DNA of 50,534 nt from Prochlorococcus sp. AG-402-I20 (GTDB taxonomy: Bacteria > Cyanobacteriota > Cyanobacteriia > PCC-6307 > Cyanobiaceae): NCBI GenBank assembly GCA_003216975.1, contig QCHY01000011.1:1-50534 (forward strand), in the 5' to 3' direction. Under the pieces are notes generated by a model. It searched no databases. It was not told the DNA's origin and saw only the letters and a list, made by a program, of their open reading frames with translations. Positions 10,311 through 30,220 of this stretch are shown piece by piece (the stretch's first letter is position 1; the number at the start of each line of letters is the position of its first letter). Position numbers and translations under genes: made by a program.

Positions 10311-10312
10311 AA

Positions 10313-10975: not shown

Positions 10976-11035
10976 ATGGTTATTTCTAATTAAACATATC
11001 CTAGATAATCAATCTCTGGTTTGAGAGAAAAAGAT

Positions 11036-11356: not shown

Positions 11357-11402
11357 AATGGTGATACCAAAAGCTAATTAAGTTTTCTAGGTTCTTTGAA
11401 GG

Positions 11403-11469
11403 ATGAACTAATGAGTTCATTTGTTGGTTTAATTTAGAGGATGACCTGAATAATTTACAAGTCATCCTC
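11403..11469 (-). terminator. Two stem-loops in the tuf-rpsJ spacer
   Basis: Two perfect stems lie between tuf and rpsJ. The first downstream of tuf pairs GAGGATGAC (11437-11445) with GTCATCCTC (11461-11469), nine base pairs with a 15-base loop. The second pairs ATGAACT (11403-11409) with AGTTCAT (11414-11420), seven pairs with a four-base loop. Neither is followed by a strong T-tract on the minus strand, so partial attenuation or an RNA-processing site is more likely than full termination. That would adjust rpsJ output relative to tuf. This role is inferred. Confidence 0.5.
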
Positions 11470-11477
11470 AGAAACAA

Positions 11478-12677
11478 TTACTCAAGAATTTTTGAGACCA
11501 CTCCTGCTCCAATAGTACGTCCACCTTCACGAATTGCGAATCTCATTCCTTGCTCAATAGCAACAGGAGATATTAATTCTCCAGTCATTTTTATTCTGTC
11601 ACCAGGCATAACCATTTCAACATTACTGCCATCATCAGATGTGAAAGCTGTAATTTGACCTGTTACATCAGTAGTACGAATATAAAACTGTGGACGATAT
11701 CCAGCAAAGAAAGGGGTATGACGACCACCCTCTTCTTTTTTCAATACATAAACCTCACCTTCGAATTTAGTGTGGGGGGTAATAGATCCTTTTTTAACAA
11801 GCACCATCCCTCTTTCAATATCTTCTTTTTGAATACCTCTCAAGAGAAGACCAACATTATCTCCAGCCATACCTTCATCGAGAAGCTTTCTAAACATCTC
11901 TACTCCAGTAACGGTTGTAACTCTCGTATCTCTGATACCTACAATTTCAACCTCCTCTCCTACTGTTACTTTTCCTCTTTCAATTCGACCAGTAGCAACG
12001 GTTCCACGACCAGTTATTGAGAAAACGTCTTCAACAGCCATTAGGAAAGGCTTATCAATTTCACGTTCTGGTTCTGGAATTGAAGAATCAACAGCAGTCA
12101 TCAATTCATCTATTTTTGTCTCCCAATCTGCTTCTCCTTCAATAGCTTTTAATCCTGAAACTTGAACAACTGGAATATCATCGCCAGGGAAGTCATAACT
12201 TGTTAGAAGTTCACGTATCTCCATTTCTACAAGTTCTATCATTTCTTCATCATCAACCATGTCGCATTTGTTTAGTGCAACAACCAATGCAGGGACACCA
12301 ACCTGCTTGGCCAAAAGGATATGTTCTTTTGTTTGTGCCATTGCTCCATCGGTAGCTGCTACAACAAGAATTGCACCGTCCATCTGAGCAGCACCTGTGA
12401 TCATGTTTTTTACATAATCAGCGTGACCTGGACAATCCACATGAGCGTAATGCCTACCATCAGTTTCATATTCAACGTGGGCAGTGTTGATTGTGATACC
12501 GCGTTCGCGCTCTTCTGGAGCTCCATCAATTTCAGCATAATCTTGCGCTTCGGCTTGACCTTTTTTGGCTAAAACCTTTGTAATTGCAGCAGTAAGTGTT
12601 GTTTTGCCATGGTCAACGTGGCCAATAGTACCTATGTTGACATGAGGTTTGTTCCTCTCAAACTTCTCGCGAGCCAT
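11478..12677 (-). CDS. tuf: Elongation factor Tu
   Basis: EF-Tu, 399 residues, delivers aminoacyl-tRNA to the ribosome. G-domain motifs are complete: [10 protein letters not shown] (G1), RGITIN (G2), DCPGHADY (G3), NKCD (G4), followed by the two beta-barrel domains ending [10 protein letters not shown]. Start is ATG ([10 protein letters not shown]). It follows fusA by 41 bases in the str operon. Confidence 0.98.
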
Positions 12678-12718
12678 TTTTTTTAAAGAATCGGGGGTTG
12701 GTTAGTAAATTTTAGAGA

Positions 12719-14794
12719 TCAGGAATTGCCCTGATTCTTGGAGATAATTGCTTCAGCAACATTACGAGGAACTTCCTCGTAGGTACTGAACTCCATTGAG
12801 AAAATACCCCGACCTTGAGTCATTGATCGGAGTTGAGTGGCATAGCCAAACATTTCGGCTAATGGCACTTTTGCCTGGACTTTGGATTGTCCATCGTCGA
12901 TGGATTGACCTTCAACCTGACCTCGTCTAGAGGACAGATCTCCAATTATAGAACCTAGGAAGTCCTCAGGCACTTCTACCTCAACTTTCATCATAGGTTC
13001 TAGAAGGACAGGATTGCACTTCTTGATTCCATCTTTGAAAGCCATTGAGCCAGCAATCTTGAAAGCCATTTCTGATGAGTCAACATCATGATAAGAGCCA
13101 TCAACCAATGTAACTTTTACATCAATTAAAGGATAGCCGGCTATTACACCAGACTCACATGTTTCTTTCATTCCTGATTCAGCGGGCTTTATATATTCTT
13201 TTGGAACAGAACCTCCGACGATTTTATTGATAAACTCAAAACCAGTTCCTGGTTCACCTGGCTCAACTTCGATAACAACATGACCATACTGACCTTTACC
13301 CCCTGTTTGTCTCGCAAACTTTCCTTCACCTGAAGAGCTAGCTCGAATGGTTTCTCTATAAGAAACTTGGGGTGCTCCAATATTGGCCTCTACCTTAAAT
13401 TCTCTCAACATACGATCGACCAAGATTTCCAGGTGCAGTTCACCCATACCCGCAATCACTGTTTGATTTGTCTCTTGATCAGTGCTGACTCTGAATGTTG
13501 GATCTTCCTCAGAAAGAGATGTTAGAGCTTTCCCTAATTTTTCCATATCACTCTTAGTCTTGGGTTCTACGGCAACTGAAATAACTGGCTCAGGAATATA
13601 TAAAGTTTCAAGAACAATTGCCTCTTCGGAAGCGCATAAAGTATCTCCCGTTGTTGTGTTTTTCAGGCCAAGCACAGCACCAAGATCCCCAGCTCTTAAT
13701 TCATCGACTTCCTCACGATCATCAGCTTTCAAAATTATCAATCTAGATATTCTCTCTTTTGCATCCTTAGTTGAGTTGAGAACATAACTTCCTTTTTCAA
13801 GGACACCGGAATACATACGAACAAAAGTCAATTTTCCATATGGATCAGCCATTACCTTGAATGCAAGCGCGCTAAATGGAGCGCTATCATCCGAAGGTCT
13901 TACAGCTTCTTTTCCATTTGGAAGTAAACCCTGAATCGGAGGGACATCAACAGGAGCAGGAAGATAATTAACTACTGCATCTAGTAATAACTGAACCCCT
14001 TTATTTTTAAAAGCTGAACCACATAACATTGGTACCAAACCATGTTTAAGAACTCCTTCCCTAATACCAGTTTTGAGTTGTTCAATAGTTAATTCACCAT
14101 TTTCTAGAAAAGAATCAAGTAATTCTTCCTCAGTTTCTGCTATTGACTCCATTAATTTTGCTCGCCAATCAGATACTAAATCAACCATGTCTGATGGAAC
14201 ATCAGTCTGCTCAATATCTTTTCCAAGATCATCTTTATAAATATATGCTTTATTTTCTACGAGATCGATAATGCCCTTCAAATCATTTTCTGCTCCAATA
14301 GGTAACTGTATTGGAACTGCGTTAGCTTTCAATCTATCTTTGATTTGACCATGGACTTTAAGAAAATCTGCTCCAGTTCTATCCATTTTATTGACAAATA
14401 CCATTCTCGGTACTGAATACCTATCGGCTTGACGCCAAACTGTTTCAGATTGAGGCTGCACTCCGCCAACCGCGCAAAAGACAGCAATTACACCATCAAG
14501 AACTCTCATCGAGCGCTCAACTTCAATCGTGAAGTCAACGTGACCAGGAGTATCGATGATGTTTATACGGTGATCGTCCCATGTAGTTGAAATCGCCGCA
14601 GCGGTAATGGTGATTCCTCGCTCTCTCTCTTGGGCCATCCAATCAGTGACAGCTGCGCCATCATGGACCTCTCCCATCTTATGAACGACACCTGAATAGA
14701 AAAGAATTCTTTCAGTACAAGTGGTTTTACCAGCATCAATATGTGCAGCAATCCCGATATTTCTTATTCGTTCCAAAGGAAAGGCGCGTGCCAC
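12719..14794 (-). CDS. fusA: Elongation factor G
   Basis: EF-G, 691 residues, drives ribosome translocation. G motifs [23 protein letters not shown] and NKMDR are present, then domains II-V, with GMGELHLEI in domain III and [10 protein letters not shown] at the start of domain IV. The start codon is GTG at 14794 ([14 protein letters not shown]). Standard position between rpsG and tuf in the str operon. Confidence 0.98.
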
Positions 14795-14899
14795 AGAAAA
14801 TACTCCGACTAAAGGGCTTTAAAATGCGCATGGACTCTACAACTAAGCATGCTAAAAAAGAAATCTTTTGAGGATTTAAATAGAAAAATTTGACCTAAA

Positions 14900-15370
14900 T
14901 CAATAGCGATAATGAGCAAAAGCTTTATTTGCTTCGGCCATCTTGTGGGTCTCTTCCCTCTTCCTCACTGCATTTCCAGCTTCATTGGCTGCATCCATAA
15001 GCTCCCCAGCAAGTTTTTGAGCCATGCTTCTACCATTTCTTGATCTTGAGAAATTTACCAACCATCTTAGTGCCATTGCAGTCCCTCTCTCTTGACGGAC
15101 CTCCATTGGAACCTGATATGTAGCTCCACCAACTCTTCTTGCTCTCACTTCAACAAGAGGTGTGACATTTTTTACTGCTGTTTCAAATAATTCAATCGGG
15201 TCTGAGCCAGTTCTCTCGTTAATCAAACCAAAGGCATCAGAAAGAATTTTTTGCGCTGTTGATTTCTTCCCGTGCTTCATCAATCGATGGACCATCATAC
15301 TTGCCAAACGATTATTGAACTGAGGATCAGGGAGAACAGGTCTTTTTTCTGCTGCGTTTCTTCTTGACAT
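14900..15370 (-). CDS. rpsG: 30S ribosomal protein S7
   Basis: S7, 156 residues, a primary binder of the 3' domain of 16S rRNA. It has the typical [16 protein letters not shown] start, [13 protein letters not shown] and [13 protein letters not shown], and ends [12 protein letters not shown]. It lies 49 bases after rpsL. A spacer of about 105 bases separates it from fusA; a short AAAAGA...TCTTTT stem may occur there. Confidence 0.97.
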
Positions 15371-15419
15371 GAAATTAGATTTGTATGGTGGAGAAAATTC
15401 AATGAATCAAAATAAGTTT

Positions 15420-15794
15420 TTATTCCTTAGGAGATTTAGCTCCATATTTTGATCTTGACTGTCTACGGTCTTTAACCCCAGCGGTATCAAGAGTTCCTCT
15501 GACTATGTGATATCTCACTCCTGGTAGGTCCTTAACTCTTCCACCTCTCAGCAAAACCACAGAGTGCTCTTGAAGGTTGTGACCGATACCACCTATGTAA
15601 GCAGTCACTTCAAATCCTGATGTTAATCTAACACGAGCGACTTTTCTTAGAGCAGAGTTAGGTTTTTTAGGAGTGGAGGTGTAAACCCTGGTACAAACTC
15701 CTCTCCTTTCTGGACAACCTCGCAAAGCAGGAGATTTTGTCTTTGTTTTTAGAGTCTTTCGCTCTGTTCTTATCAACTGTTGAATGGTTGGCAT
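15420..15794 (-). CDS. rpsL: 30S ribosomal protein S12
   Basis: S12, 124 residues, decoding-centre protein. The start is ATG at 15794 ([16 protein letters not shown]), which matches the family. An open frame extends 13 codons further upstream to 15833 but is not needed. Conserved [30 protein letters not shown] and [11 protein letters not shown] are present. First gene of the str operon, divergent from gltB across about 280 bases. Confidence 0.97.
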
Positions 15795-15978
15795 TAATTT
15801 TATATTTGGTCTAGGTTCGACCAGATTCAACAATTCTCCAGATTACTTGGTCAAGCGCCCAAATTAGTTTTTTTTTTTAATTAATAATTTATTTTTATTC
15901 AGGTTTAAGCATAAGAAAGAAATATTTTAAAGAAAGTATTGAATAAAAAACTTGATGGTCGACAAAAATGTTTAAGAT

Positions 15979-15992
15979 GTAACTCTAGGAAC
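15979..15992 (+). promoter_or_regulatory. Possible imperfect NtcA-type site upstream of gltB
   Basis: GTA-N8-AAC lies 82 bases before the gltB ATG and differs from the NtcA consensus GTA-N8-TAC at one position. A-T-rich sequence follows, with a rough -10-like TATTTC about 22 bases downstream. Glutamate synthase is a plausible nitrogen-regulated gene, but a one-mismatch six-base motif occurs often by chance in this composition, so this is weak. Confidence 0.2.
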
Positions 15993-16073
15993 TATCAAAT
16001 CTATCTAATCATCTATTTCACAGGTTACCGATAGCACTTTTGCAAGAAAAGAAAAAATAGTAAGTTAAAAAAC

Positions 16074-19000
16074 ATGCATCAACGACTCTCAAGATCAAAT
16101 TGGCCTTATTGCGATAGCAGCTATCCAGATGCCTTTTCTGGGGAAAAAGATTCTTGTGGAGTTGGCTTCATAGCTAGCGTCGAAGGCAAACAAAATCATT
16201 GGGTCTTGTCTCAGGCTTTACGTGGTCTCAGCTGTATGGAGCACAGAGGAGGATGCGGGGGCGATAGCGATTCAGGTGATGGCGCTGGGATTTTATGTGA
16301 AATTCCATGGTCATATTTAAAGCAAGTTTGGGAAACAGCCAAACAATGCGAAGCCCAACTATCAGGAATAGGTATGATTTTCATGCCTAAAGATTTAAAG
16401 AATAGAGAAATAGCTAAAAAAATATGTGAGCAAGAAGCTGAGTATTTAGGATTGACCTCCCAAGGATGGAGAGATGTTCCTGTTAATGATGAAGTTTTAG
16501 GCAAGCTTGCAAGAGAAAATGAACCCTTTATTACACAATGGATAGTTGATATTAAGGATAAAGAAATTAATCTTGAAGCTTTACTTTTTAGATTAAGGCA
16601 AAGGATTTCAAACCGAGCAAATATAGAATTAAAGAAGGACAAATTAGGACTCTATATATGCTCTTTAAGTAGCAAAACAATTGTATATAAAGGGATGGTT
16701 AGATCTGAAATATTGGCTCCTTTTTATACAGATCTAAAGGACGATAGATTCGAAGTTTCATATGCGGTTTACCATAGAAGATTTAGTACAAATACTTTGC
16801 CTAAATGGCCATTAGCTCAACCCATGAGACTCTTAGGACATAATGGAGAAATAAATACATTACTAGGAAATATAAATTGGGCAAAGGCAACAGAAACAGA
16901 TATAAGTTCGGTATGGGAAAACAATGCAAATGATCTAAAACCAATTGTCAATAATTCCTTTAGTGATTCAGCCAATCTTGATTTAACTCTTGAACTATTA
17001 GTTCGAAGTGGTCGACCAATAACTGACAGCTTATTAACACTTATACCTGAGGCTTTTAGAGATCAACCTGAATTAATCAATAAACCTGAAATAACTGCTT
17101 TTTATGAATATGCAGCAGGAACTCAGGAGCCATGGGACGGCCCAGCATTAATAGTTTTTACTGACGGAAAGAACGTAGGCGCAACTCTTGATAGAAATGG
17201 TTTAAGACCAGCTCGCTATTGCATAACTAAAAATGGATATGTTGTTATGGGATCTGAAACAGGTGTTGTTGAATTAGAAGAAGATCTAATCCAAGAGAAA
17301 GGTCGGCTAGGTCCTGGTCAAATGCTTGCGGTAGATTTAGAAAGCAAGAGAATTTTACGAAACTGGGATGTTAAAGAAGAGTCAGCTAATAGATACCCAT
17401 ACTTAGATTGGTTAAAAGCAAATCGTATAAACCTTAATAACCAAAGTTGGGAAATTAATAATAAATTTGATAAGCAAAAATTGCTTCAGCAACAAATTGC
17501 ATTTGGCTTTAGTGCAGAAGATTTTGATTACATAATTAATAGCATGGCAGCAAATGCAAAAGAACCAACTTATTGCATGGGAGACGATATACCACTAGCA
17601 ATACTTTCTAATAAATCCCATATTCTTTACGACTATTTCAAACAGAGATTTGCACAAGTTACCAATCCACCAATTGATCCTCTTAGAGAAAAGCTAGTCA
17701 CTAGCTTAGAGATGAATCTTGGGGTTAGAAAAGCACCATTAAGGCCTAACGCAGAGGCTGCAAGACTAATTCATATCAAATCACCAATACTTAATGAAAA
17801 AGAATTAACTTCAATAACAAAGTCAGAACTTTCATGCAAGCAGATATCTACATTAATTCCTATTAATGATGATAAAATCAACCTCGAAAAAGGTCTCAAA
17901 AATCTATGCCAAGAAGCAGAAAATAGTGTAATTAATGGTGGCGAAATACTAATCCTTTCGGACAGAAATATTAATCGAGAAAAATCCTACATTCCACCTC
18001 TTCTTGCTGTTGGTGCCGTTCATCATCACTTACTTAGAAAAGGTCTAAGACTAAAAACCTCGATAATTCTAGATACAGCTCAATGCTGGAGTACGCATCA
18101 CATAGCATGTCTGATTGGATTTGGAGCAAGTGCAATTTGTCCGTGGTTGACATGGGAAACCACTCGCCATTGGTGGCAGTTACCTAAAACTCAAAAACTT
18201 ATTTCCGATGGGAAATTATCTAATTTATCTATAGAGATTGCGCAAGATAATGTTAAGAAAGCAATGGAAGATGGATTACGAAAAATACTTTCGAAGATAG
18301 GGATCTCAGTTTTAGCAAGTTATCACGGAGCACAAATCTTTGAAGCTGTAGGTATCGGTGCAGATTTAATTGACTTAGCTTTCAAGGGAACAACAAGTCG
18401 TATAGCAGGACTAACTTTGAGCGAATTATCAATCGAGACAGTTTCATTTCATAAAAAAGCTTTCCCAGAACTAGATCCAAAAAAACTTGATTTTAATGGA
18501 TTTGTTCAATATCGAAATAGTGGAGAATTTCATTTAAACAATCCAGAAATGTCAAAAATTCTTCATGCTGCCGTGAAAGCTGGACCAGGATATAACCACT
18601 TCAAAACTTATCAACAACTTCTAGAAAGTCGTCCCGCTACTACCCTCAGAGATCTCCTTACATTTAAAACAGCCACCCACCCTTTACCCATTGATCAAAT
18701 AGAGAGTGTTGAGAGTATTTGTCAAAGATTTTGCACTGGCGGAATGAGTCTAGGTGCCCTATCTAGGGAAGCGCATGAAGTTCTTGCAATAGCAATGAAT
18801 AGGATTGGAGGCAAAAGTAATAGTGGTGAAGGAGGAGAGGATCCTGCGAGATTCAATGTCCTCGAAGATGTTGATGAAAATAATCAATCAAAAACCTTAC
18901 CTAATCTCAAAGGACTTTTAAATGGAGATACAGCATGTTCTGCAATTAAACAAATTGCGTCTGGCAGATTTGGTGTAACCCCTGAATATTTAACTAGCGG

Positions 19001-20930
19001 CAAGCAATTAGAAATCAAAGTAGCTCAAGGTGCAAAGCCTGGAGAAGGAGGACAATTACCTGGACCCAAGGTTGATGAATACATAGCCAAACTTCGTAAT
19101 AGCAAGCCAGGAGTAGCTCTTATTTCTCCTCCTCCACATCATGATATTTACTCCATAGAAGATCTTGCCCAACTTATTCACGACTTACATCAAATAAATC
19201 CAACTGCAAAAGTCAGTGTGAAATTAGTTGCAGAAATAGGCATTGGCACAATTGCAGGTGGAGTGGCCAAAGCCAATGCTGATGTAATCCAAATTTCAGG
19301 ACATGATGGTGGGACAGGTGCCTCGCCACTGAGTTCAATTAAACATGCTGGTTTACCATGGGAACTTGGATTAACTGAAGTACATCGATCTTTATTAGAA
19401 AATGGTTTGCGCAAAAGGGTTTTATTAAGAGCAGATGGAGGTTTAAAGACAGGATGGGATGTTCTGATTGCGGCTTTACTTGGAGCAGAAGAATATGGTT
19501 TTGGAACAATCGCAATGATTGCCGAAGGTTGCATCATGGCGAGGATTTGCCATACAAATAAATGTCCAGTCGGAGTAGCAACTCAACAAGAAGGCTTAAG
19601 AAAAAGATTCCCAGGATTACCAGAACATGTGGTTAATTTCTTTATCTTCGTAGCTGAGGAAGTCAGACAATTGATGAGTCAAGTTGGTTTAGCAAAGCTA
19701 GAAGATCTTATTGGAAGAACTGATTTATTAATTCCAAGGAAGGTAGACCTAACAAAAACAAAAAAGATCGACCTATCAAGTCTGCTCAAACCTTTAGAGA
19801 GCTCAACAGATCGCTCATGGTTGAGCCACGAAATACAAGCTCATAGCAATGGGGAAGTCCTTGAGAATTCTCTTTTAAAAGATGAAGAAATTTCCAATGC
19901 AATTGAGAATCAGGGAAGCATAACTAAAGAAATTTCAATTGTTAATACAGATAGAAGTGTTTGTGCACGAATCTCTGGAGTAATAGCCAAAAAATATGGA
20001 AATAAAGGTTTTAGTGGAAATTTAAATTTGATATTTAAAGGTCCAGCTGGACAAAGTTTTGGTGCATTTATTTTAAGTGGAATGAATATTTCTTTGATAG
20101 GAGAAGCTAATGACTATGTAGGCAAAGGCATTAACGGAGGATCCATTACGATTGTTCCCGAAATTATTAATGACACATCCAATACACAGGTGATACTTGG
20201 CAATACATGTCTATATGGAGCCACTGGTGGGAAATTATTCGCCCTTGGAATAGCAGGGGAGCGTTTTGGTGTTCGCAATAGTGGAGCTCATGCTGTTATT
20301 GAAGGAGCAGGAGATCATTGTTGCGAATATATGACTGGAGGAGTTGTTGTTACAGCTCCTGGTTGGATGAGAGGTGGAATTGATTTTGTTGGAATTACTT
20401 TTCCTAAAACTCGTCTTTTAATAATCATGATTACTTTAATATCTGTTTTAGTAGTGATTTTCTTTCTTGATAAAACAGCTTGGGGAATGAGAATTCGAGC
20501 AGTAACTCAAAATAGACCTATGAGTGATTGTCTAGGTATATCAACAGAAACAGTAGATATTATTACTTTTGGAATTGGATCTGGTTTGGCTGGTGTCGCG
20601 GGAGTTGCGGTTTCACTCCTTGGCTCAGTGGGACCAAATGTTGGTGGAAATTATATTGTGGGATGTTTTATGGTTGTCGTTCTTGGTGGAGTAGGCAATT
20701 TATTAGGAACAATCCTTGCTTCTTTCTCTATTGGAATAATGACCGACTTAATAGGAGCAGGAAGACTACTTACGATTTGGCCAGAGATGCCATCCCCTCT
20801 TTATTCAACAATAGATTTTTTTGCGACAACAAGCATGGCAAGAGTAATGATATTTGCTCTAATAGTCATATTCCTTCAATTTAGACCAACTGGGATGTTT
20901 CCTCAAAAAGGAAGAATGGTGGAGTCTTGA
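16074..20930 (+). CDS. gltB: Chimeric ORF: glutamate synthase GltB fused in frame to UrtB C-terminus
   Basis: A 1618-codon frame. Residues 1 to about 1424 are ferredoxin-type glutamate synthase, which makes two glutamates from glutamine and 2-oxoglutarate. It has the Ntn amidotransferase with Cys in [12 protein letters not shown] (about residue 28), the central domain, the FMN/synthase domain ([27 protein letters not shown]), the 3Fe-4S cysteines in [15 protein letters not shown] (about 1153-1164), and most of the C-terminal GXGXG beta-helix. At [12 protein letters not shown] the frame switches to UrtB (TAPGWMRGG...). About 100 residues of the GltB beta-helix end are missing, judged from family length (about 1520). 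No stop or frameshift marks the switch. Either a genuine rearrangement or a chimeric assembly. Confidence 0.9.
20346..20930 (+). pseudogene. urtB: UrtB fragment: C-terminal half of urea ABC transporter permease
   Basis: The last 194 codons of the chimeric frame match the C-terminal half of UrtB, a LivH-type inner-membrane permease of the urea transporter. They include [20 protein letters not shown] (the cytoplasmic loop contacting the ATPases), [32 protein letters not shown] and the ending [14 protein letters not shown]. About half of the normal protein, including the first membrane helices, is absent, as is urtA upstream. It lies three bases before urtC, the expected operon order. As it stands the urea permease should not function. 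Confidence 0.85.
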
Positions 20931-20933
20931 TTT

Positions 20934-22061
20934 ATGGGTATTTTTTCTACAAAAAAAAGTTGGATTAACTTAACTATTTGGGTAATAATTATTGCCTTCA
21001 TTATTGCAGCGCCTTCCTTACTTCCTGTTTTTAGATTAAATCTCTTAGGAAGATATTTATCTCTTGCAATAGTGGCTCTTGGAGTTGATTTGATTTGGGG
21101 ATTCACAGGGATGTTGAGTTTAGGTCAAGGAATTTTCTTTGCTCTTGGTGGATATTGTGCTGCGATGTTCCTCCAACTTAATAGTGCAGGAGAATTCCCA
21201 AATGGTATTCCCGAGTTTTTTGGTTTATATGGAGTCGAAACACTTCCATTTTTTTGGGAGCCTTTTAAAAGTTCAATTTTTACTCTTTTTTCTATTTGGT
21301 TGTTACCGGCAATAATTGCGGGACTTCTCGGGTATTTAGTTTTTAGAAATAGAATTAAAGGCGTTTATTTTTCAATTCTTACACAAGCGGCTCTTTTGGT
21401 TTTCTTCAATTTCTTTAATGGGCAGCAGAAATTGATTAATGGAACAAATGGTTTAAAAACAGACGTGACTCAACTTTTTGGACAAATGGTAGGTTCAGAA
21501 ATAATGCAAAGATGGTTTTTTTGGATATCAGCTGTTTTAGTTATACTTGCATGGTTTTTTGCACGGTGGATTGTTCGAGATAGATTTGGAAATATCCTTA
21601 TTGGAATTAGAGATGATGAAGCTCGAGTTCGTTTCACTGGATATAATCCAGTAATTTTTAAAACAATAATTTTTTCAATAGCAGGAGGATTAGCTGGTAT
21701 TTCAGGGGCTTTGTATACAGTTCAATCCGGAATAGTTTCTCCTCAATTTATGACTGTCCCTTTCTCAATAGAAATGGTTATTTGGGTTGCCGTGGGTGGT
21801 AGAGGAACTTTATTAGGTGCAATTCTTGGAGCTGTTTTAATCAATTATGCAAAAAGTTTGGTGAGTGAAGCTTTACCAGCAAGCTGGATGTTTATTCAAG
21901 GTGGATTATTTATTCTTGTTGTAACAGCTCTTCCAGAGGGGGTACTAGGATGGATTAGGAAAGACGGTCCAAAGAAATTATTGTTTTTACTTGGGATTAA
22001 TAAAAAATTAGAAACATATCCAAGTCTTGAAGTCAATGAACAAGGTGAGGTGAAATCATGA
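20934..22061 (+). CDS. urtC: Urea ABC transporter permease UrtC
   Basis: UrtC, 375 residues, LivM-type second permease of the urea transporter, with about eight to ten membrane helices. Signatures are LGRYLSLAIVALGVDLIWGFTGMLSLGQGIFFALGG (in part), the EAA-like loop FGNILIGIRDDEARVRFTGYN and the late MVIWVAVGGRGTLLGAILGA segment. Full length. Its ATG follows the chimeric frame's stop by three bases, and its last four bases overlap urtD (ATGA). In the normal cluster urtA and urtB and an NtcA-regulated promoter would lie upstream; here only gltB sequence does. Confidence 0.95.
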   Translation: MGIFSTKKSWINLTIWVIIIAFIIAAPSLLPVFRLNLLGRYLSLAIVALGVDLIWGFTGMLSLGQGIFFALGGYCAAMFLQLNSAGEFPNGIPEFFGLYGVETLPFFWEPFKSSIFTLFSIWLLPAIIAGLLGYLVFRNRIKGVYFSILTQAALLVFFNFFNGQQKLINGTNGLKTDVTQLFGQMVGSEIMQRWFFWISAVLVILAWFFARWIVRDRFGNILIGIRDDEARVRFTGYNPVIFKTIIFSIAGGLAGISGALYTVQSGIVSPQFMTVPFSIEMVIWVAVGGRGTLLGAILGAVLINYAKSLVSEALPASWMFIQGGLFILVVTALPEGVLGWIRKDGPKKLLFLLGINKKLETYPSLEVNEQGEVKS

Positions 22062-22813
22062 CTTCTCCATTGCTAGAGCTAAAACAAATTTCAGTTAGTT
22101 TTGAAGGATTCCTTGCTCTCAGAGATCTTAATCTGGTTTTGAATCAGGGTGATCTTAGAGCAGTTATTGGGCCCAACGGTGCAGGTAAAACTACATTCTT
22201 AGATGTCATTACAGGGAAAGTAGCACCTACAAAGGGTGACGTGATTTTTAAAGAAAAATCGTTGATTGGTCAAAAAGAGTTTCGTATAGCGCGTAAAGGG
22301 ATTGGAAGAAAATTTCAAAGTCCTAGGATATTTGAGAATTTATCTGTGCAAGAAAACCTAGCTCTAGCAGTGAGTAGACCTAAAACTCCTTTGTCTTTGT
22401 TGATGAAAAGTTTAAAGGTCAAGCATTTAGATCAAATTAAACATTTGATGAGTATTGTCAACCTTCAATCAAAAGCGAATATAAGGGCCGGAGCGCTTTC
22501 TCATGGTCAAAAACAATGGCTTGAGATTGCGATGCTAGTGGGACAAGACCCTGATCTTTTACTTGTTGATGAACCTGTTGCTGGTTTGACTGATGAAGAA
22601 ACAGATTTAACTGCTGATCTTCTTAAATCTTTAGCGGGTGATCATACAGTTTTAGTCATTGATCATGATATGGAATTTATTCGTAGACTTGATTGCCCTG
22701 TTAGTGTTTTACACCAAGGTCATGTATTGAAAGAGGGTTCCATGAGTGACATACAAAAAGATCCTTTAGTGATAGAGGTTTATCTTGGAAAAACTGATGA
22801 GGAAGAACAATGA
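22058..22813 (+). CDS. urtD: Urea ABC transporter ATP-binding protein UrtD
   Basis: UrtD, 251 residues, LivG-type ATPase. Walker A is GPNGAGKTT, the signature is the family's LSHGQKQWLEIAM, Walker B is LLLVDEPVAGLTDEE and the switch His is in VIDHDMEFI. It overlaps urtC by four bases at its start and urtE by four bases at its end, so the three are translationally coupled. Third codon positions are noticeably richer in G than C (28 versus 11 in the first 140 codons by my hand count), unlike the end of gltB. Confidence 0.95.
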   Translation: MTSPLLELKQISVSFEGFLALRDLNLVLNQGDLRAVIGPNGAGKTTFLDVITGKVAPTKGDVIFKEKSLIGQKEFRIARKGIGRKFQSPRIFENLSVQENLALAVSRPKTPLSLLMKSLKVKHLDQIKHLMSIVNLQSKANIRAGALSHGQKQWLEIAMLVGQDPDLLLVDEPVAGLTDEETDLTADLLKSLAGDHTVLVIDHDMEFIRRLDCPVSVLHQGHVLKEGSMSDIQKDPLVIEVYLGKTDEEEQ

Positions 22814-23517
22814 CTATGCTTCAGATAAAAGGCTTGAATACCTACTATGGCGAAAGTCATATTCTTCGAGATGTTGATATGAATATCAATCAAGGTGAGA
22901 TGATTTGTCTTATAGGTCGAAATGGAGTAGGTAAAACAACTTTGCTTAAATCTTTAATAGGATTATTAACTCCACGGCGTGGAGAGATTGTTTTTAATGG
23001 AGATTTGGTTAATAGAAAGCCACCTCATCAAAGGGCTCGTTCTGGAATTGCGTATGTTCCCCAAGGACGAGAAATAATACCTTATTTGACTGTCGAGGAA
23101 AATCTTCAACTTGGATTGGAAGCTTTACCAGGAGGTTTAGCAAAGCATAAACAGATTGATGAATTGGTATATGAACTTTTCCCTGTCTTAAAACAATTTC
23201 TATCTCGTAAAGGAGGTGACTTAAGCGGAGGGCAGCAGCAACAACTTGCAATTGCTCGAGCATTACTTGGGAAACCAAAGTTGCTTTTACTTGATGAACC
23301 AACTGAAGGAATACAACCGAATATCGTTCAAGATATTGAGTCTGCAGTTAAAAGGATCATTCGTGAGACTGGTGTTGGGGTTTTATTGGTAGAGCAACAT
23401 CTGCATTTTGTGAGGCAAGCAGATCGTTATTATGCAATGCAACGCGGAGGCATAGTTGCAAATGGACCAACTAGTGAATTAAGTAAAGCTGTGGTAGAGA
23501 AATTCCTTAGTGTTTAA
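22810..23517 (+). CDS. urtE: Urea ABC transporter ATP-binding protein UrtE
   Basis: UrtE, 235 residues, LivF-type ATPase. Walker A GRNGVGKTT, signature LSGGQQQQLAIARALL, Walker B LLLLDEPTEGIQPNI and switch LVEQHLHFV are all intact. The start ATG overlaps the urtD stop; a second Met two codons later is an alternative. Last gene of the cluster. It is followed within three bases by the stop of a small convergent zinc-ribbon gene, and no terminator hairpin is visible. Confidence 0.95.
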   Translation: MTMLQIKGLNTYYGESHILRDVDMNINQGEMICLIGRNGVGKTTLLKSLIGLLTPRRGEIVFNGDLVNRKPPHQRARSGIAYVPQGREIIPYLTVEENLQLGLEALPGGLAKHKQIDELVYELFPVLKQFLSRKGGDLSGGQQQQLAIARALLGKPKLLLLDEPTEGIQPNIVQDIESAVKRIIRETGVGVLLVEQHLHFVRQADRYYAMQRGGIVANGPTSELSKAVVEKFLSV

Positions 23518-23519
23518 GT

Positions 23520-23663
23520 CTATTTTGTTTGAGTAAAAGCAGTTTCTTGCTCTATTTTGTCTTGGCAAGTAGAGCAAAGAATATGACCTTTTTTTTTCCA
23601 AAAAGTCTTTGTTGACCTTTCGATATTTTGTCCACAGCCAAGGCATTTGAAGAGTGGACTCAT
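23520..23663 (-). CDS. Small zinc-ribbon protein (47 aa)
   Basis: A short gene encoding 47 residues. Two CxxC pairs, CLGC (residues 7-10) and CSTC (30-33), are set 20 residues apart with basic residues between them (FWKKKGH), the pattern of a one-knuckle zinc ribbon binding one Zn. No homologue recognised by name. ATG start and TAG stop are clear. It ends two bases after the urtE stop on the other strand. The function is unknown; nucleic-acid or protein binding is a guess from the fold. Confidence 0.65.
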   Translation of the reverse strand: MSPLFKCLGCGQNIERSTKTFWKKKGHILCSTCQDKIEQETAFTQTK

Positions 23664-23808
23664 TTATTACTGAATCTTTTTTATATATTTCTTTATCATA
23701 CTATTTTCATTCTGTCTTAACAGATACCAGATTTTTTTGGCCGTAGACTTTGATTTTTAAAGATAATACTAATTTATTTAATTAACATTAAAAAGCATTT
23801 TTTGATAC

Positions 23809-23836
23809 TTGCTCTATTTATTTAGTTTGTTATAAG
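23809..23836 (+). promoter_or_regulatory. Candidate sigma-70 promoter for mini-Hli gene
   Basis: TTGCTC (23809-23814), a 16-base spacer, then TATAAG (23831-23836), 21 bases before the ATG of the mini-Hli gene. The match to -35/-10 is moderate and no transcript data are available. Confidence 0.35.
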
Positions 23837-23857
23837 TTGATCAAGTGCTTCTATTGC

Positions 23858-23968
23858 ATGTCCTTCGAAAGATTAAGTAAAACTGAGATAGTCAATGGCA
23901 GAATTGCAATGTCAGGTGTATTAGTTATTTTATTATTTGAAATAGTATCTAAGTTAAGTATTGCTTAG
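23858..23968 (+). CDS. Minimal high-light-inducible (Hli/SCP) protein, 36 aa
   Basis: A 36-residue protein, MSFERLSKTEIVNGRIAMSG followed by a hydrophobic stretch with a conserved Glu (VLVILLFEIV). The ExxNGRxAMxG core is the chlorophyll-binding helix of the Hli/ELIP/CAB superfamily, with Glu and Asn-Gly-Arg as pigment and ion-pair residues. Prochlorococcus carries many Hlis of 35-60 residues that bind pigment and protect photosystems in thylakoids. Here the usual TGKGLLG-like tail is missing; it ends SKLSIA. A -10/-35 pair lies just upstream. Expression is probably stress-linked, by family. Confidence 0.7.
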   Translation: MSFERLSKTEIVNGRIAMSGVLVILLFEIVSKLSIA

Positions 23969-24015
23969 ATACTATATATATGAAATTAATTTGGTTTGAA
24001 TAAAACCTATTTAAA

Positions 24016-24525
24016 TTAAGCTACTTTTAAAAATAGAGAATCTTTTATTCTTTTGATTTCTCCATTTTTCCATAACCAGATAATAGGCTCTGTAGATTTT
24101 GCTTGTTGTAGATCAATTCTGTTCTCAATACTTATAGGATTAAATTCTGTATTCGATTCAAATTGTTTATCTCTAATTGCCTGATTGATAACAATACTTC
24201 CATCTTTTCCAGATATTGATCTATGAAATGTGCCGATAGGTATTTGAAGTGCACCCATGAATCTATGGAGATAAATTATGTGATGGGGTTCATCCCAAAG
24301 AGGATTTAATAGTGTGAAGGTTCTATCTCCCTCAAGTACAAGATTATTATCTGTTTGATGATAGTGTACATAATATTGCTCAAAGCCATTTAAATCAGGA
24401 GGTGAAGTTGCTCCTCCTCTATGAATAACGACATCACTACCGTTTGAACCTTTAACACTGGCATCTAAAAAAGTTACTTCAGGAGTCTCTCGAAAAATAT
24501 TAACCGGTACAAAATTGAGTTTCAT
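24016..24525 (-). CDS. Cupin-like protein of unknown function
   Basis: A 169-residue soluble protein. The two cupin motifs are recognisable. Motif 1 is around YYVHYHQTDNNLVLEGDRTF, with His54, His56 and Glu65. Motif 2 is GALQIPIGTFHRSIS, matching PxGxxH with Pro96, Gly98 and His101. A metal-binding double-stranded beta-helix is therefore likely; the substrate is unknown. The start is ATG 24525; an upstream in-frame TTG at 24546 adds seven residues. It stands alone on the minus strand among small genes. An A-T-rich perfect inverted repeat lies upstream. Confidence 0.6.
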   Translation of the reverse strand: MKLNFVPVNIFRETPEVTFLDASVKGSNGSDVVIHRGGATSPPDLNGFEQYYVHYHQTDNNLVLEGDRTFTLLNPLWDEPHHIIYLHRFMGALQIPIGTFHRSISGKDGSIVINQAIRDKQFESNTEFNPISIENRIDLQQAKSTEPIIWLWKNGEIKRIKDSLFLKVA

Positions 24526-24577
24526 CAAAAAATTTATTTGTTCCAAACATTACTGGAATAAATTTATCTAACTGTAT

Positions 24578-24606
24578 TAATTAATTCACTTTTAGCGAAT
24601 TAATTA
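24578..24606. repeat. Perfect 10-bp inverted repeat upstream of the cupin-like gene
   Basis: TAATTAATTC (24578-24587) and GAATTAATTA (24597-24606) are perfect complements with a nine-base spacer, 53 bases before the cupin-like gene's ATG. It could be an operator or a hairpin followed by TCTTTT on the plus strand. Pure A-T composition makes chance more likely. Confidence 0.3.
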
Positions 24607-24748
24607 TCTTTTGGGAAAGAAGAAAAGTATTTGATTTTACTAAAAGGCATCAAATATGATTTGTTCTAGTTAGCTCACAAAGCAATTAATGATACATAAG
24701 ATTATGAAAAATATTAATAAGTTAGATCACATAAAATATTATTAAGTC

Positions 24749-24859
24749 ATGGCTAAATCAACTATTAAAAATAAAAAACTTTTGGTTGATGAAATGATTA
24801 AAACCTTTAAGTCTATCCCCGCAACAGCGATAACTTTTTCGAACATAAAAAAAAATTAA
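24749..24859 (+). CDS. Possible small basic protein (36 aa)
   Basis: ATG to TAA, 36 residues, Lys-rich at both ends (MAKSTIKNKKLLVDEMIKTF ... NIKKN). No family recognised. There is no obvious ribosome binding site; the sequence before the ATG is A-T-rich. It is 22 bases upstream of the next plus-strand gene and could share its transcript. It may also be a chance frame. Confidence 0.3.
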   Translation: MAKSTIKNKKLLVDEMIKTFKSIPATAITFSNIKKN

Positions 24860-24881
24860 ACTCATAACTTACGATATATTT

Positions 24882-25088
24882 TTGAGATACTTCGCTAGCG
24901 GATTATTTTTATTATCACATGGCCTTTTGGTTTTAGATCATCTAGGAGTAGGAGCAGCTCTTCATGGGATTGGTGAGGTCTTTTTTGCCCCATGGGCTAT
25001 TAAGCAGAAAGCATGGGACTTGGTTTTTATAGCTTTTTTATTTGGCGCATTTGATCTTTGGGGAACTTTGAAATTAGGATTTAATTAG
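24882..25088 (+). CDS. Small membrane protein (68 aa), unknown
   Basis: A 68-residue protein with two probable membrane helices, about residues 3-17 (FASGLFLLSHGLLVL) and about 45-58 (WDLVFIAFLFGAFDLW). Between them is a short Gly/His-rich loop (GVGAALHGIGEV). No known family recognised by me. ATG start, normal codon use for the region. It is followed by the candidate structured RNA at 25127-25196. Confidence 0.5.
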   Translation: MRYFASGLFLLSHGLLVLDHLGVGAALHGIGEVFFAPWAIKQKAWDLVFIAFLFGAFDLWGTLKLGFN

Positions 25089-25126
25089 TAAATTCATTAG
25101 ATAAACTTGTTTTTTTCTTTAAGATT

Positions 25127-25196
25127 GGGGAGGAAGGTCAAAACCCTTCCCAGTAGTGCTGACCTCCCTACAGAAAACTTTGGAACGGGTTTTCTG
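25127..25196 (+). ncRNA. Candidate structured RNA with alternative hairpins
   Basis: An unusually G/C-rich, self-complementary stretch in an A-T-rich spacer between two convergent small genes. Hairpin A: GGAAGG (25132-25137) pairs with CCTTCC (25145-25150). A competing pairing: AGGTC (25135-25139) pairs with GACCT (25161-25165), which can extend to GGGG/TCCC. Hairpin C: CAGAAAAC (25171-25178) pairs perfectly with GTTTTCTG (25189-25196), loop of 10. No T-tract follows on either strand, so a plain terminator is a poor fit. A small RNA or regulatory 3' element is inferred. I do not recognise a named family. Confidence 0.4.
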
Positions 25197-25286
25197 ATAA
25201 AATAGTTATAGGAATTTACTTGAATAAGTTAAGACTTAATTGATACAAAATCAAAAATCTATTAACAATTTGTATATCTTATGAAT

Positions 25287-25496
25287 TTATTTAATCAATT
25301 CTTTATTAGATAGTATTTTTTTTCGTTTGACTTTTTTCAACTCGTGCATACCTTCTATTTGTTGGTAAACAGACTGTAGTTGATCGCAAATATGTTCAGT
25401 ATTTTCTACTTTGTTTAATCTGAGTAGCATTTTCTCTATTTGCTCTTTGCATTCTAAGAAAATATGACAATCTATTGTTCCTGGCTCGTATTGCAT
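25287..25496 (-). CDS. Small hypothetical protein (69 aa)
   Basis: From ATG 25496 it encodes 69 residues beginning MQYEPGTIDCHIFLECKEQI. The middle is probably alpha-helical (LRLNKVENTEHICDQLQSVY) and the C-terminus is strongly basic (HELKKVKRKK). An upstream TTG at 25532 would add 12 hydrophobic residues and is less likely. No family recognised. It converges on the structured RNA candidate. Confidence 0.45.
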   Translation of the reverse strand: MQYEPGTIDCHIFLECKEQIEKMLLRLNKVENTEHICDQLQSVYQQIEGMHELKKVKRKKILSNKELIK

Positions 25497-25666
25497 GTTG
25501 GGAACTAAAGAGTATATAAATAAAGGAATCAAATAATTAAATCTGTATATGTTGATTCAAATAATCAAATCTATTCTGTTATTTATTTTTAAAAAATTAT
25601 AAATCAATGCTATAAAATTAAAAATTCTAATATGTTATAGAAATTAAGTTTTTTGGACTTTATTTA

Positions 25667-25807
25667 TTAACCCATCTCTGCTTTCATTGCTTCATGGATT
25701 CTTTGACTCATGATTTCATGACCACAATATTGCAAGTGCACTTCTTGTGACCCTTTACCGGATTTGTTTTGAGTGTACTTAAGTCCTCTGTAAGTTAGCT
25801 CAGCCAT
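25667..25807 (-). CDS. DUF4278-like small protein (46 aa)
   Basis: A 46-residue protein whose start, MAELTYRGLKYTQ, is the hallmark of cyanobacterial DUF4278 (MxLTYRGxxY); the rest is charged with QYCGHEIMSQR. Function unknown. Such mini-proteins are numerous and often stress-responsive in marine picocyanobacteria. ATG start at 25807, TAA stop at 25667. Monocistronic by position. Confidence 0.6.
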   Translation of the reverse strand: MAELTYRGLKYTQNKSGKGSQEVHLQYCGHEIMSQRIHEAMKAEMG

Positions 25808-26037
25808 TGGAATGATTTTCAATGTTCAAGTCCCCGTTCCATGGCTTGAATCTAACTGCGACTCAAATTGAGCTGAACGTCGTTTGATGATACACAATAC
25901 ACTCCCAATCTGTTGAAGTTTCTTCAAAAATTATTATCAATCTAGATCTGAACTCGTGATGCATTAAAGAATGAGTGGCAATCAGATTGAATATTCCTAA
26001 TGAGAGGTCTTATTAAATGTATGAAATTAGTAATTAA

Positions 26038-26667
26038 CTATCGAGCTAGTCTAGAAATATATGAATCTCTTGAACCGGCATTGATCCATCCGGTCGCGAT
26101 CGTTTTTGGATGAGTCTTATTAACTTGACCTCTATGAATATGTGTAAGGCCAGCGGGAAAAATAACTAGTTTTCCTCGTTCCGCTGTCTCATGATACTCT
26201 TGCCAGTGAAATTCTGTTCCTCCTGAATCGACATCATTGCAATACAGAATCCAAGCTAAGACTCTGTGAACTGGTTCAGTCGCTTCTTCGCTAATAGTCC
26301 AATCACAGTGCCATTTCTTAAACCCCTCCCCAGGAGCATAACGTTGTAGATTGAAAATGGGATTAACAAAGAGAGATTGTTCAGGAGCGCATTCGCTAAA
26401 AAGTGGGCGTTCTTCAAGGTATTTTTGAAGACCAGCATTCACTCCTCTTATTATTACTTCAGACAAAGCAAATGATTCTGGATCAGTTCGATCTATTGCT
26501 ACAAGGCTGATATCTGTAGAAATTTTTGCAGGATCTGAATCATTATTTGTCCCATTACTAAAGGCAATTCCATTGCGATGCAAGTCTGTACGACGATCAA
26601 AAAATGACATCACGCCATCTGCAACAGATTCAAAACCTTTATTTCTATAACTAGCAATTAAATTCAT
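26038..26667 (-). CDS. 2-oxoglutarate/Fe(II)-dependent oxygenase
   Basis: A 209-residue 2OG-Fe(II) dioxygenase of the prolyl-hydroxylase type. It has NLQRYAPGEGFKKWHCDW with the His120-x-Asp122 iron ligands, VLAWILYCNDVDSGGTEFHW, and the distal IFPAGLTHIHRGQVN with His176/178, then the 2-oxoglutarate-binding Lys in HPKTIATGW. Length and motif order fit enzymes hydroxylating protein or free amino-acid residues. The target is unknown. Freestanding on the minus strand. Confidence 0.85.
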   Translation of the reverse strand: MNLIASYRNKGFESVADGVMSFFDRRTDLHRNGIAFSNGTNNDSDPAKISTDISLVAIDRTDPESFALSEVIIRGVNAGLQKYLEERPLFSECAPEQSLFVNPIFNLQRYAPGEGFKKWHCDWTISEEATEPVHRVLAWILYCNDVDSGGTEFHWQEYHETAERGKLVIFPAGLTHIHRGQVNKTHPKTIATGWINAGSRDSYISRLAR

Positions 26668-26820
26668 AGAATTTTTTTAAGGTTTTTTTATCTCTGGAAA
26701 CTCTAAATCGCTTGAAAGTACCATTTCAATGAAAATCTCAAAGGGACAATTTTTCCTTTCTTGGTTGGCTAGCTTTTATGTTTAATTTAGATGAAGTTGT
26801 TTTAATTAAAAGGCTATAAA

Positions 26821-26976
26821 TCAAGCTAAGGCTTTGTCTTTAAGAGACCTTAAGTATCTCTTTCTTTGACCGCTACCTTCTACTTCAAAATTCCAAGTAG
26901 GTTTTTTGTGGTCGGTGTTTTTTAAGTTAACGCCAGAATTGCTAGTGCTTAACTTCTTCTTAATCTGTGTATTCAT
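26821..26976 (-). CDS. Small basic hypothetical protein (51 aa)
   Basis: ATG to TGA, 51 residues, Lys/Arg/Ser-rich (begins MNTQIKKKLSTSNSG, ends RYLRSLKDKALA), with one aromatic patch, KPTWNFEVEGSG. No homologue recognised. It is placed downstream of a clear terminator, which supports an independent unit. The basic composition hints at nucleic acid or ribosome binding, but this is only a guess. Confidence 0.45.
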   Translation of the reverse strand: MNTQIKKKLSTSNSGVNLKNTDHKKPTWNFEVEGSGQRKRYLRSLKDKALA

Positions 26977-27045
26977 GGGACTATTAAAGCACATTCTCTA
27001 ATTCTTTATGGTTCGGTCGTTACTTTTTCTTCTCGTAAATAGATA

Positions 27046-27076
27046 ATAAAAAAGAGGTCCTCTTGAACCCCTCTTT
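27046..27076 (-). terminator. Rho-independent terminator
   Basis: On the minus strand AAAGAGG pairs with CCTCTTT (plus coordinates 27070-27076 and 27051-27057), with a 12-base loop, and is followed by a run of T (complement of the A-run at 27048-27053). It sits 28 bases after the stop of the 47-residue gene above it and would end that transcript. Confidence 0.7.
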
Positions 27077-27103
27077 GAAATTTAAAACAATTTTGACCTT
27101 AAC

Positions 27104-27247
27104 CTATGCAATTCCTCGGTTCTTATAAGGGTCATCTTTGAAAGGCTGCGCCTCAAAACTTGGTGGTGAGTTCTCTTTATAAGGATGAAATAGAGCATTT
27201 CCCATTGAAATCAGTAATTCTTGAAGCCAAAGAATTGTTTTTTCCAT
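27104..27247 (-). CDS. Small hypothetical protein (47 aa)
   Basis: ATG at 27247 to TAG at 27104, 47 residues. A short amphipathic N-terminal helix (MEKTILWLQELLISMGNALF) precedes a polar, Pro-rich tail ending FKDDPYKNRGIA. A recognisable terminator follows at once, supporting a real gene. No function assigned. Confidence 0.5.
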   Translation of the reverse strand: MEKTILWLQELLISMGNALFHPYKENSPPSFEAQPFKDDPYKNRGIA

Positions 27248-27393
27248 TGAGTCCTCTCGCGGCATATAACCATATATAAGTTATGTGGAATATTTATACA
27301 TCAGTAAAAACTCCTCTTTTTAAATTTTTAATTTTCTAAGCAATAGCAATCGAGCAGCTCTCGAGTATCTATTGGAAATAAGAAATTTTGATC

Positions 27394-28467
27394 TTATCCG
27401 AATCCTTGAGATGCTGTTTTTGTCCGAACCTTAAACTCCCAAACCGTAATTCCTCCATTTGCATTTATTGCAGCCAAGGCAGTGTCATCAGGATGCCAAG
27501 CGATTTGGCTGACAAGGTCACCTGCAAATGCACCACCAACTGGATCACCCTGACCATCTTTTTGGAGAAACCAAGAAAAAACTGAACCATCGCGCGCGCC
27601 AGAAGCTAAAAGCATTCCGCTATGTGAGAAAGCAAGGCATGAAATGGGTTCCGTATGAAGCATTAACTCTCCTGGCACAGTGCCCTCAGGGCCATCGCCT
27701 TGAAAACTCCACACCGTCACTCGATCACTACCCCCGGTAGCAAGGACTGTGCCGGTTTGATCAAAAGCTAGATGGCTTGGTTTGCCTGGGTAGCCTGTCA
27801 TCTCTGAATCTTGATTAGTGGAACGACGCCAGAAATGAACAGAATTATCCTGACTTCCGCATGCCACTATGTCTCCATCTGAACTAAGCACCATAGATAC
27901 CAGTGAGCCTCGCCACTCCAACTTTTGATTGACGTTGTCGCTTACTACATCAAAAAAAATTACTTGGCCGTAACATGCTGTGGCTAATTCATTGGAATTA
28001 GACCAAGAAATCGCGCTGACAGTGCTGGGATGCTCCTCTGATCGCCAATGTTCTTGACCATTTTCATCAAAAACATAGACGTATTTAGTAAAAACTACTG
28101 CTAAAAATTTTCCGTCTGGGGACCACTTGATGTGTTCAACCCATCCTTTCCCTAGTTTCAAATTTTTAGTTGACTTACCCTCTTTGCTTTCCCATATACA
28201 CACATGTCCATCCTGGCCAGCAGTTGCAAAAGTATTTCCATCTGGATGAATAGACATTGCTAGTAAGCCACCTTTATGTATGTCTTTTGATTGCCAAATA
28301 AGCTTTCCAGATTTCCCCTCAAATGCGTAAAGCCCTCCAGCAACATCACCTACTAAAAAGGTTTTACCTTGTAATGCCCAGCCGCAGACAATCGCATAGT
28401 CGTCAACTTGAGCAGACCAACCTTCATGAAGCATTCCTTTTGGACTAAATGCTTCTATACCAGACAT
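27394..28467 (-). CDS. WD40-repeat beta-propeller protein in the zinc operon
   Basis: A 357-residue cytoplasmic protein made almost entirely of WD40 repeats, about seven blades. Clear blade cores are SIHPDGNTFATAGQDGHVCIW, KWSPDGKFLAVV, LSSDGDIVACGSQDNSVHFW, AFSHSGMLLASGARDGSVFSW and AWHPDDTALAAINANGGITVW (each shown in part). No catalytic domain or signal peptide. Its ATG overlaps the end of the COG0523 GTPase gene by 13 bases, so the two are translationally coupled. A scaffold for the GTPase or its zinc client is a reasonable inference. Confidence 0.85.
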   Translation of the reverse strand: MSGIEAFSPKGMLHEGWSAQVDDYAIVCGWALQGKTFLVGDVAGGLYAFEGKSGKLIWQSKDIHKGGLLAMSIHPDGNTFATAGQDGHVCIWESKEGKSTKNLKLGKGWVEHIKWSPDGKFLAVVFTKYVYVFDENGQEHWRSEEHPSTVSAISWSNSNELATACYGQVIFFDVVSDNVNQKLEWRGSLVSMVLSSDGDIVACGSQDNSVHFWRRSTNQDSEMTGYPGKPSHLAFDQTGTVLATGGSDRVTVWSFQGDGPEGTVPGELMLHTEPISCLAFSHSGMLLASGARDGSVFSWFLQKDGQGDPVGGAFAGDLVSQIAWHPDDTALAAINANGGITVWEFKVRTKTASQGFG

Positions 28468-29837
28468 TTGTCAAACTCTCTACTCATTTCTGCTTCATCA
28501 AGATTTCTACCGATAAAGACGAGTTGGTTGCGGCGAGGTTCATTGCCCCACTCTTTATCAGGTTGGGCGGTGAAGAGCATATGTACTCCTTGAAAAACTA
28601 TTCGCCGTGACTCCCCTTCATAGCTAATGAATCCTTTCGTACGGAATATGTCCACCCCTTTTTCTGATAGGAGCCTGCTTAACCACCTATTCAGTTTCTC
28701 TGGATCTACATCCCCTATTCGCTCGATAGCAATGGAGCTCACTTCGTCATCATGTTCATGCTCTGCTACCCAAACTCTTTCAGCTATTGGAGAAATCACT
28801 GAAATGCTCTGATCACTATTATTATCTTCAGTAGTTGAGGTTTTTACTTTAGTTATTTTTAAACTGAATTCCTCTGCTGTATGTTGAGTGAATAAACCTA
28901 TATCCCTTGCCTTGTTAACGTCTATAAGGAAGGACTTAGTACCTACAGATTGAAGTTGAAGGCTAACATGCTTCCCCACGGGGACTATGTCGCCTGGCTC
29001 CAAAGGTTGTTCTTTTTCAGCATATAGTCTTACGCATGATTCAGCACCTGAGTTTAAAGATATCTCATCCTTGCCTTGGTCTAATAACAGGACGAGAGAC
29101 ATTGTGGGGTCTGGACCTTCTTCGAGCGTTAGTTCATAGCGACCTTCTTCAAGTGAAAACACACCTGTCCACTCAAATGGGTATTCTGGTTCAAGGAAAG
29201 TTGGACGACGCTGAAGTACTTGATCTAGATCAAAAGCACTTAGATTTAGCACAGTATCAATTGAGACGTCTGCTTGTTTACTGCGTATGACACGAGCCAT
29301 ACGATTCATATCTCGTAGACGTGACTCTAAGTTGTCGAGGGATTCATCTGAAACTAGATCGGTTTTATTTAGAACAAGGACGTCAGCAAAGGCAACTTGC
29401 TCCGAACTCTCATCACTTCGACCAAGTTGTTGCCCTATATGGGCTGCATCAACAAGTGTGACTATGCCATCAAGTGAAAACTCCTCACGGATTTCATCGT
29501 CCATAAAGAATGTCTGAGCAACAGGACCAGGATCAGCAAGGCCAGTAGTTTCAACTAATACATAGTCAAATTTGTCTCGCCTCTTCATGAGGTTTCCAAG
29601 TACACGAATAAGATCACCCCGAACGGTGCAGCAGATGCAGCCATTCGACATCTCGAAGACTTCTTCATCAGCATTGATTACTAATCCCTGATCAATGCCA
29701 ACTTCACCATATTCATTCTCAATAACAGCTATTTTTTTACCATGCTCTTCGCTCAGGATTCGATTGAGTAGTGTTGTTTTGCCAGATCCTAGGAAACCAG
29801 TAAGTATTGTAACCGGTACTTTTTGTTTGGTACTCAT
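28455..29837 (-). CDS. COG0523 (CobW/Zng1-type) GTPase with inserted module
   Basis: A 460-residue G3E-family metallochaperone GTPase. Walker A is GFLGSGKTT (14-22), the metal-binding CxCC is NGCICC (65-70), the base motif is NKTD (157-160), and a CobW C-terminal domain spans about 365-455. Between them, about residues 221-330, lies an unusual module (FEWTGVFSLEEG ... DPTMSLVLL ... FTQHTAEEF). It closely resembles an insertion in the ZnuA of the same operon. A small His/Asp linker, AEHEHDDE, follows. Position after znuA and near a Fur-type regulator points to zinc delivery under starvation. It overlaps the WD40 gene. Confidence 0.9.
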   Translation of the reverse strand: MSTKQKVPVTILTGFLGSGKTTLLNRILSEEHGKKIAVIENEYGEVGIDQGLVINADEEVFEMSNGCICCTVRGDLIRVLGNLMKRRDKFDYVLVETTGLADPGPVAQTFFMDDEIREEFSLDGIVTLVDAAHIGQQLGRSDESSEQVAFADVLVLNKTDLVSDESLDNLESRLRDMNRMARVIRSKQADVSIDTVLNLSAFDLDQVLQRRPTFLEPEYPFEWTGVFSLEEGRYELTLEEGPDPTMSLVLLLDQGKDEISLNSGAESCVRLYAEKEQPLEPGDIVPVGKHVSLQLQSVGTKSFLIDVNKARDIGLFTQHTAEEFSLKITKVKTSTTEDNNSDQSISVISPIAERVWVAEHEHDDEVSSIAIERIGDVDPEKLNRWLSRLLSEKGVDIFRTKGFISYEGESRRIVFQGVHMLFTAQPDKEWGNEPRRNQLVFIGRNLDEAEMSREFDKCLV

Positions 29838-29846
29838 TTTATTTAA

Positions 29847-30164: not shown

Positions 30165-30166
30165 GT

Positions 30167-30213: not shown

Positions 30214-30220
30214 TTGAATG

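Follow-up and report, generated by a model that had tools for sequence, protein, structure and literature searches.

In the parts of the study by Lasken & Stockwell (2007, PMC1855051) on which we draw, 406 of 475 chimeras from single-cell MDA were inverted, 76.8% of MDA chimeras had at least 2, and up to 21, complementary bases at the join, and chimeras occurred at a frequency of about one junction per 22 kb; the cause proposed there is that displaced 3' ends prime on displaced strands. The joined segments lay less than 10 kb apart in 337 of the 406 inverted chimeras and farther apart in 69. Beyond 10 kb, according to the same parts of that study, inverted and direct chimeras were about equal in number (69 and 58, respectively), proximity being without influence, and complementary bases were seen in only 34.8% of the inverted ones. 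As described in the sections of a second paper used here, the single-cell data set that includes plate AG-402 was produced with MDA or WGA-X, and its workflow had 1.5 misassemblies per 100 kb when benchmarked (PMC6122165). At the rate given in those sections, about 25 misassemblies would be expected in 1.7 Mb, if the assembly studied here is of the AG-402 data-set kind.

The window that we analyzed is the whole of contig C11 (QCHY01000011.1, Prochlorococcus sp. AG-402-I20), a stretch of 50,534 bases. The assembly to which it belongs (GCA_003216975.1, hereafter the own assembly) consists of 43 contigs and 1.70 Mb, with a completeness estimate of 92.15%, and we infer that it represents a single amplified genome.

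Results

The window contains an ORF at 16074-20930 (+) that encodes 1618 amino acids and stays open where GltB sequence gives way to the second half of UrtB, as the original prediction had stated. Pfam domains on both sides support this assignment. Specifically, GATase_2, Glu_syn_central, Glu_synthase and a truncated GXGXG domain precede the join, and BPD_transp_2 positions 135-269 of 269, that is, the second half of a permease, follow it. The GXGXG match covers profile positions 2-142 of 190 and ends at residue 1426, indicating that the C-terminal GXGXG domain of a glutamate synthase is incomplete here. We take the gltB of the window to encode a "ferredoxin-type" glutamate synthase. The protein thus comprises 1426 GltB residues and then the part of UrtB that starts near residue 206 of a 400-codon frame; GltB runs on for 103 residues past the break point in the four relatives checked, and the codon at 20343 corresponds to residue 206 of the UrtB frame in the two relatives checked. 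The name UrtB for the part after the join is a probable one, given on the basis of the BPD_transp_2 match and of gene order. The three ORFs after the fused frame (375, 251 and 235 amino acids) were taken as urtC, urtD and urtE by their position and by the naming in the original prediction, whose list of what is gone (the end of GltB, the first half of UrtB and all of urtA, with urtCDE intact) is correct for the contig. The coordinates of the features are collected in Table 1.

Table 1. Features of the window on either side of the gltB-urtB join
Feature	Position	Strand	Evidence
gltB (glutamate synthase), first 1426 codons; without the last 103 codons of relatives	16074..20351	+	ORF; Pfam; collinear with G011 C1 (+) and G016 C1 (+)
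Join: common TGTT; imperfect match over 20343-20351	20348..20351	+	comparison with relatives' loci
urtB (urea ABC transporter permease), 3' half only	20352..20930	+	ORF; Pfam; relatives' frame
urtC, urtD, urtE, intact ORFs, putative names	20934..23517	+	ORF calls
Left arm	11..20351	+	collinear with G011 C1 1033548-1053880 (+); 89.0 and 92.5% identity, two pieces
Right arm, inverted relative to the left arm	20343..50522	+	collinear with G011 C1 1022726-992427 (-); 90.8 and 87.9% identity, two pieces

We mapped the join by comparing the window with 31 loci of relatives (9 gltB and 22 urtB). The base after 20351 is G in all nine gltB copies and A in the window, and the window's T at 20347 occurs in none of the 22 urtB copies, indicating that the switch lies within 20348-20351. 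The TGTT at these positions is common to 9/9 gltB and 20/22 urtB copies, so that the complementary sequence at the join, as read from the relatives, falls within the 2-21 bases of inverted MDA chimeras. It had been proposed that both parents share a GTT-type sequence and that microhomology drove the joining. The GTT-type sequence is borne out only in part, and the shared sequence is shorter and less exact than supposed: 18 of the 22 urtB copies read GTTGATGTT, and this commonest form is identical to the window's GTTGTTGTT over 20343-20351 at only 8 of 9 bases. The gltB and urtB parents of G011, a single-contig relative, are identical to each other at 7 of these 9 bases. As the cell's own unbroken genes are unassembled, the microhomology was judged from the relatives and is to that extent a probable one. 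Among 400,000 random site pairs drawn from G011 stretches, 2.1% shared at least 4 bases, and 0.012% of 400,000 random G011 pairs showed 8 of 9 matching bases with the last four exact, a pattern that was picked after the join had been seen. At the join, the window's GltB has Val-Val-Val and the UrtB of G011 and G016, a further relative, has Val-Asp-Val in the same codon phase, which is why the frame stays open. At 20361-20363, ten bases past the join, the window encodes Gly (GGT) where 21 of the 22 urtB copies encode Ser and the remaining one (L086) Ala; the difference may reflect ordinary variation or may have arisen at the switch itself.

We then searched a 501-base probe spanning the join in 60 genomes, namely the own genome together with 36 same-genus genomes and 23 from other families of the class. 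None of the 36 same-genus genomes had a match that spans the join, and among all 60 only the own genome did. Both halves were found as separate matches in 27 of the 36, one half in 8 and neither in 1. In 11 of the 36, both halves lay on one contig, and in all 11 the two were separated by 30.9-31.1 kb, urtB being on the - strand and gltB on the + strand. Alignment to relatives, which had been suggested together with the original prediction, showed that each arm of the window is collinear with G011 and G016, but that the arms are inverted to each other (Table 1); in G016 the left arm is on the + strand and the right arm on the - strand, as in G011, over the G016 stretches compared. The distance from break to break is 31.2 kb in G011 and 31.3 kb in G016, and the join is the sole break of collinearity at the scale of these alignments. 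The second segment is thus inverted, as in inverted MDA chimeras, by comparison with G011, G016 and all 11 same-genus genomes that carry both genes on one contig. Among the 80 of 591 loci listed, the two named relatives with more than 90% protein identity, L047 (93%) and L061 (92%), are Prochlorococcus records from plate AG-402. Contamination by another organism was rejected, as the two arms have their matches in the same relatives, at comparable identity, and differ little in G+C content (36.6% and 37.5%).

The sequences expected beyond the two breaks were largely absent from the own assembly. For most of these searches, 40 of the first-look candidates were scored. The 3.8 kb expected after the gltB break were not found (40 of 70 candidates scored in one of the searches), save for one match on contig C4 (C4:51895-51968; 77%, 74 bases), which lies inside the radical-SAM gene of this stretch. 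Likewise, the 10.8 kb expected from the urtB break to the window's left end were not found in the own assembly save for matches at C21:24128-25096 (81%), C10:51994-52084 (86%, 91 bases) and C3:132088-132171 (76%). We took these four matches as probable paralogues, because three of them are at 76-81% identity compared with 88-93% for the arms, and the C10 match, although at 86%, covers only 91 bases. In G011, the missing 10.8 kb hold the 5' part of urtB, urtA (Peripla_BP_5) and ureC (Urease_alpha), and the missing stretches also include a putative porin-like gene and further genes that we take, from their proteins, to be urease genes. The missing 3.8 kb hold the gltB 3' end, a radical-SAM gene, whose protein is read as lipA, and a CbiG/TP-methylase gene. 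The own assembly resumes with contig C30 at about G011 1057713, 0.2 kb before a gene that is presumably psaA.

No reciprocal junction (urtB 5' to gltB 3') was seen in the own assembly, which is about 92% complete. The search for a second gltB and urtAB that had been proposed alongside the original prediction likewise found no second gltB, urtA or urtB there; the sole GltB match was C11. GXGXG was found at one place of the own assembly, again in C11, with a control match in 13 of 14 genomes, Synechococcus elongatus not being among them. In addition, no ELFV-type glutamate dehydrogenase was found in the own assembly (control match in 14/14 genomes, 12 of them over the cut-off). The single GltB and GXGXG place, together with this result, indicates that the own assembly holds no backup for glutamate synthesis among the families searched. 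Loss of urea uptake by the cell, as claimed earlier, is not a necessary consequence, since the missing sequence may simply be unassembled.

Two side observations were made in these alignments. About 267 bases of C30 (C30:4606-4872 of the own assembly, G000; L133 and L134) align to two successive places of G011 after the gltB locus, as if there were a tandem duplicate in G011 or a collapsed copy in the own assembly. Furthermore, the region around 1069.4-1069.9 kb of G011 has at least 40 matches in the own genome (C2, C6, C10, C13, C24 and C26), often 102 bases apart, which suggests genes with 34-residue repeats.

Discussion

From these sequence comparisons, the join is very probably an inverted amplification chimera that was carried into the assembly. 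The original prediction had offered two possibilities, a real fusion or an assembly or amplification chimera; the second is favoured over the first, because the join is inverted, both continuations are missing from the assembly, none of the 36 same-genus genomes has the join and no second GltB was found. The apparent GltB-UrtB fusion is therefore most likely not a real gene. Phi29-type amplification (MDA or WGA-X) of the single cell would have displaced a gltB copy with TGTT at its 3' end, and this end may have annealed to a single strand with urtB, on the same or another amplified molecule, and been extended there. If the true continuations were covered too thinly, the assembler would have followed the chimeric path, and the cell's chromosome would hold a separate, intact gltB and urtABCDE. 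An amplification chimera is expected to leave poor coverage of both true continuations.

The join fits an MDA chimera in orientation, microhomology and missing continuations, and less well in distance, given that the segments of inverted MDA chimeras usually lie less than 10 kb apart, which is a tendency rather than a strict rule, and those joined here are about 31 kb apart in G011 and G016. As inverted and direct MDA joins are about equal in number beyond 10 kb, orientation is not diagnostic at 31 kb, and orientation and microhomology together give weaker support at this distance than was first apparent. Also counting against a chimera are the matches to parts of the missing stretches (C4, C21, C10 and C3), and the frame kept across the join, which would be expected by chance in 1 of 3 cases for two sense strands.

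The 31-kb distance, long for an MDA inversion, would be no difficulty for a real inversion of the chromosome with short inverted matches in gltB and urtB as its end points; the window would contain one junction of this inversion. The geometry fits as well: inverting G011 1022727-1053880 yields the join seen in the window and would bring the missing 10.8 and 3.8 kb together in one gap. The other junction would be expected inside this unassembled stretch of about 14.7 kb, which would reach from the window's left end to C30. However, such an inversion would break urtB and the only GltB found, in a genome where no ELFV-type glutamate dehydrogenase was found, and its reciprocal junction would have to lie, by chance, within the unassembled part of the genome, roughly 8% (as estimated from the completeness of 92.15%). 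It is also seen in 0/11 same-genus genomes with both genes on one contig. We consider a real inversion unlikely. If it were true, a lethal rearrangement would have been caught in one natural Prochlorococcus cell, with its only GOGAT and its urea transporter broken, and the cell would be dependent on outside glutamate, or doomed.

A purely computational misassembly, in which two unlinked pieces were joined at a short overlap without any chimeric molecule, could make use of the short GTT-rich stretch common to both at the join. Short-read assemblers use overlaps far longer than 4 bases, and the exact overlap here is only 4 bases; moreover, chance alone would have to account for both pieces lying within 31 kb of each other in relatives, making this explanation highly improbable. 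Least credible of all is a functional GltB-UrtB fusion, or a natural deletion that removed urtA and half of urtB, the fused frame then being kept by selection: the frame is indeed open for 1618 codons, but GXGXG is cut short, only half a permease is left, no match extends past query residue 1439 among the matches listed (80 of 591 loci), and a simple deletion cannot yield the join because gltB and urtB are on opposite strands in relatives.

An amplification chimera at this place would have practical consequences. Automatic annotation would enter a fused GltB-UrtB and the loss of urtA for this contig, and surveys that tally urea use or gene fusions in such genomes should regard it as a probable chimera at 20348-20351. 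A simple way to detect such joins is to see whether each arm is collinear with a finished relative and to search for the absent continuations.

Compared with the gltB locus and the urt-ure cluster of same-genus genomes, the window is alike in that both arms are collinear with G011 and G016 at 88-93% nucleotide identity, and differs in that its arms are joined to each other and not to their normal neighbours. With the inverted MDA chimeras with an intervening deletion, as described in the parts of PMC1855051 used here, it shares the inverted join, the few complementary bases and the absence of the true continuations. It differs from the chimeras of those parts of the study in that its segments are 31 kb apart, whereas theirs were less than 10 kb apart in 337 of 406 cases, and in that its join lies in a 50-kb contig, whereas theirs were in reads.
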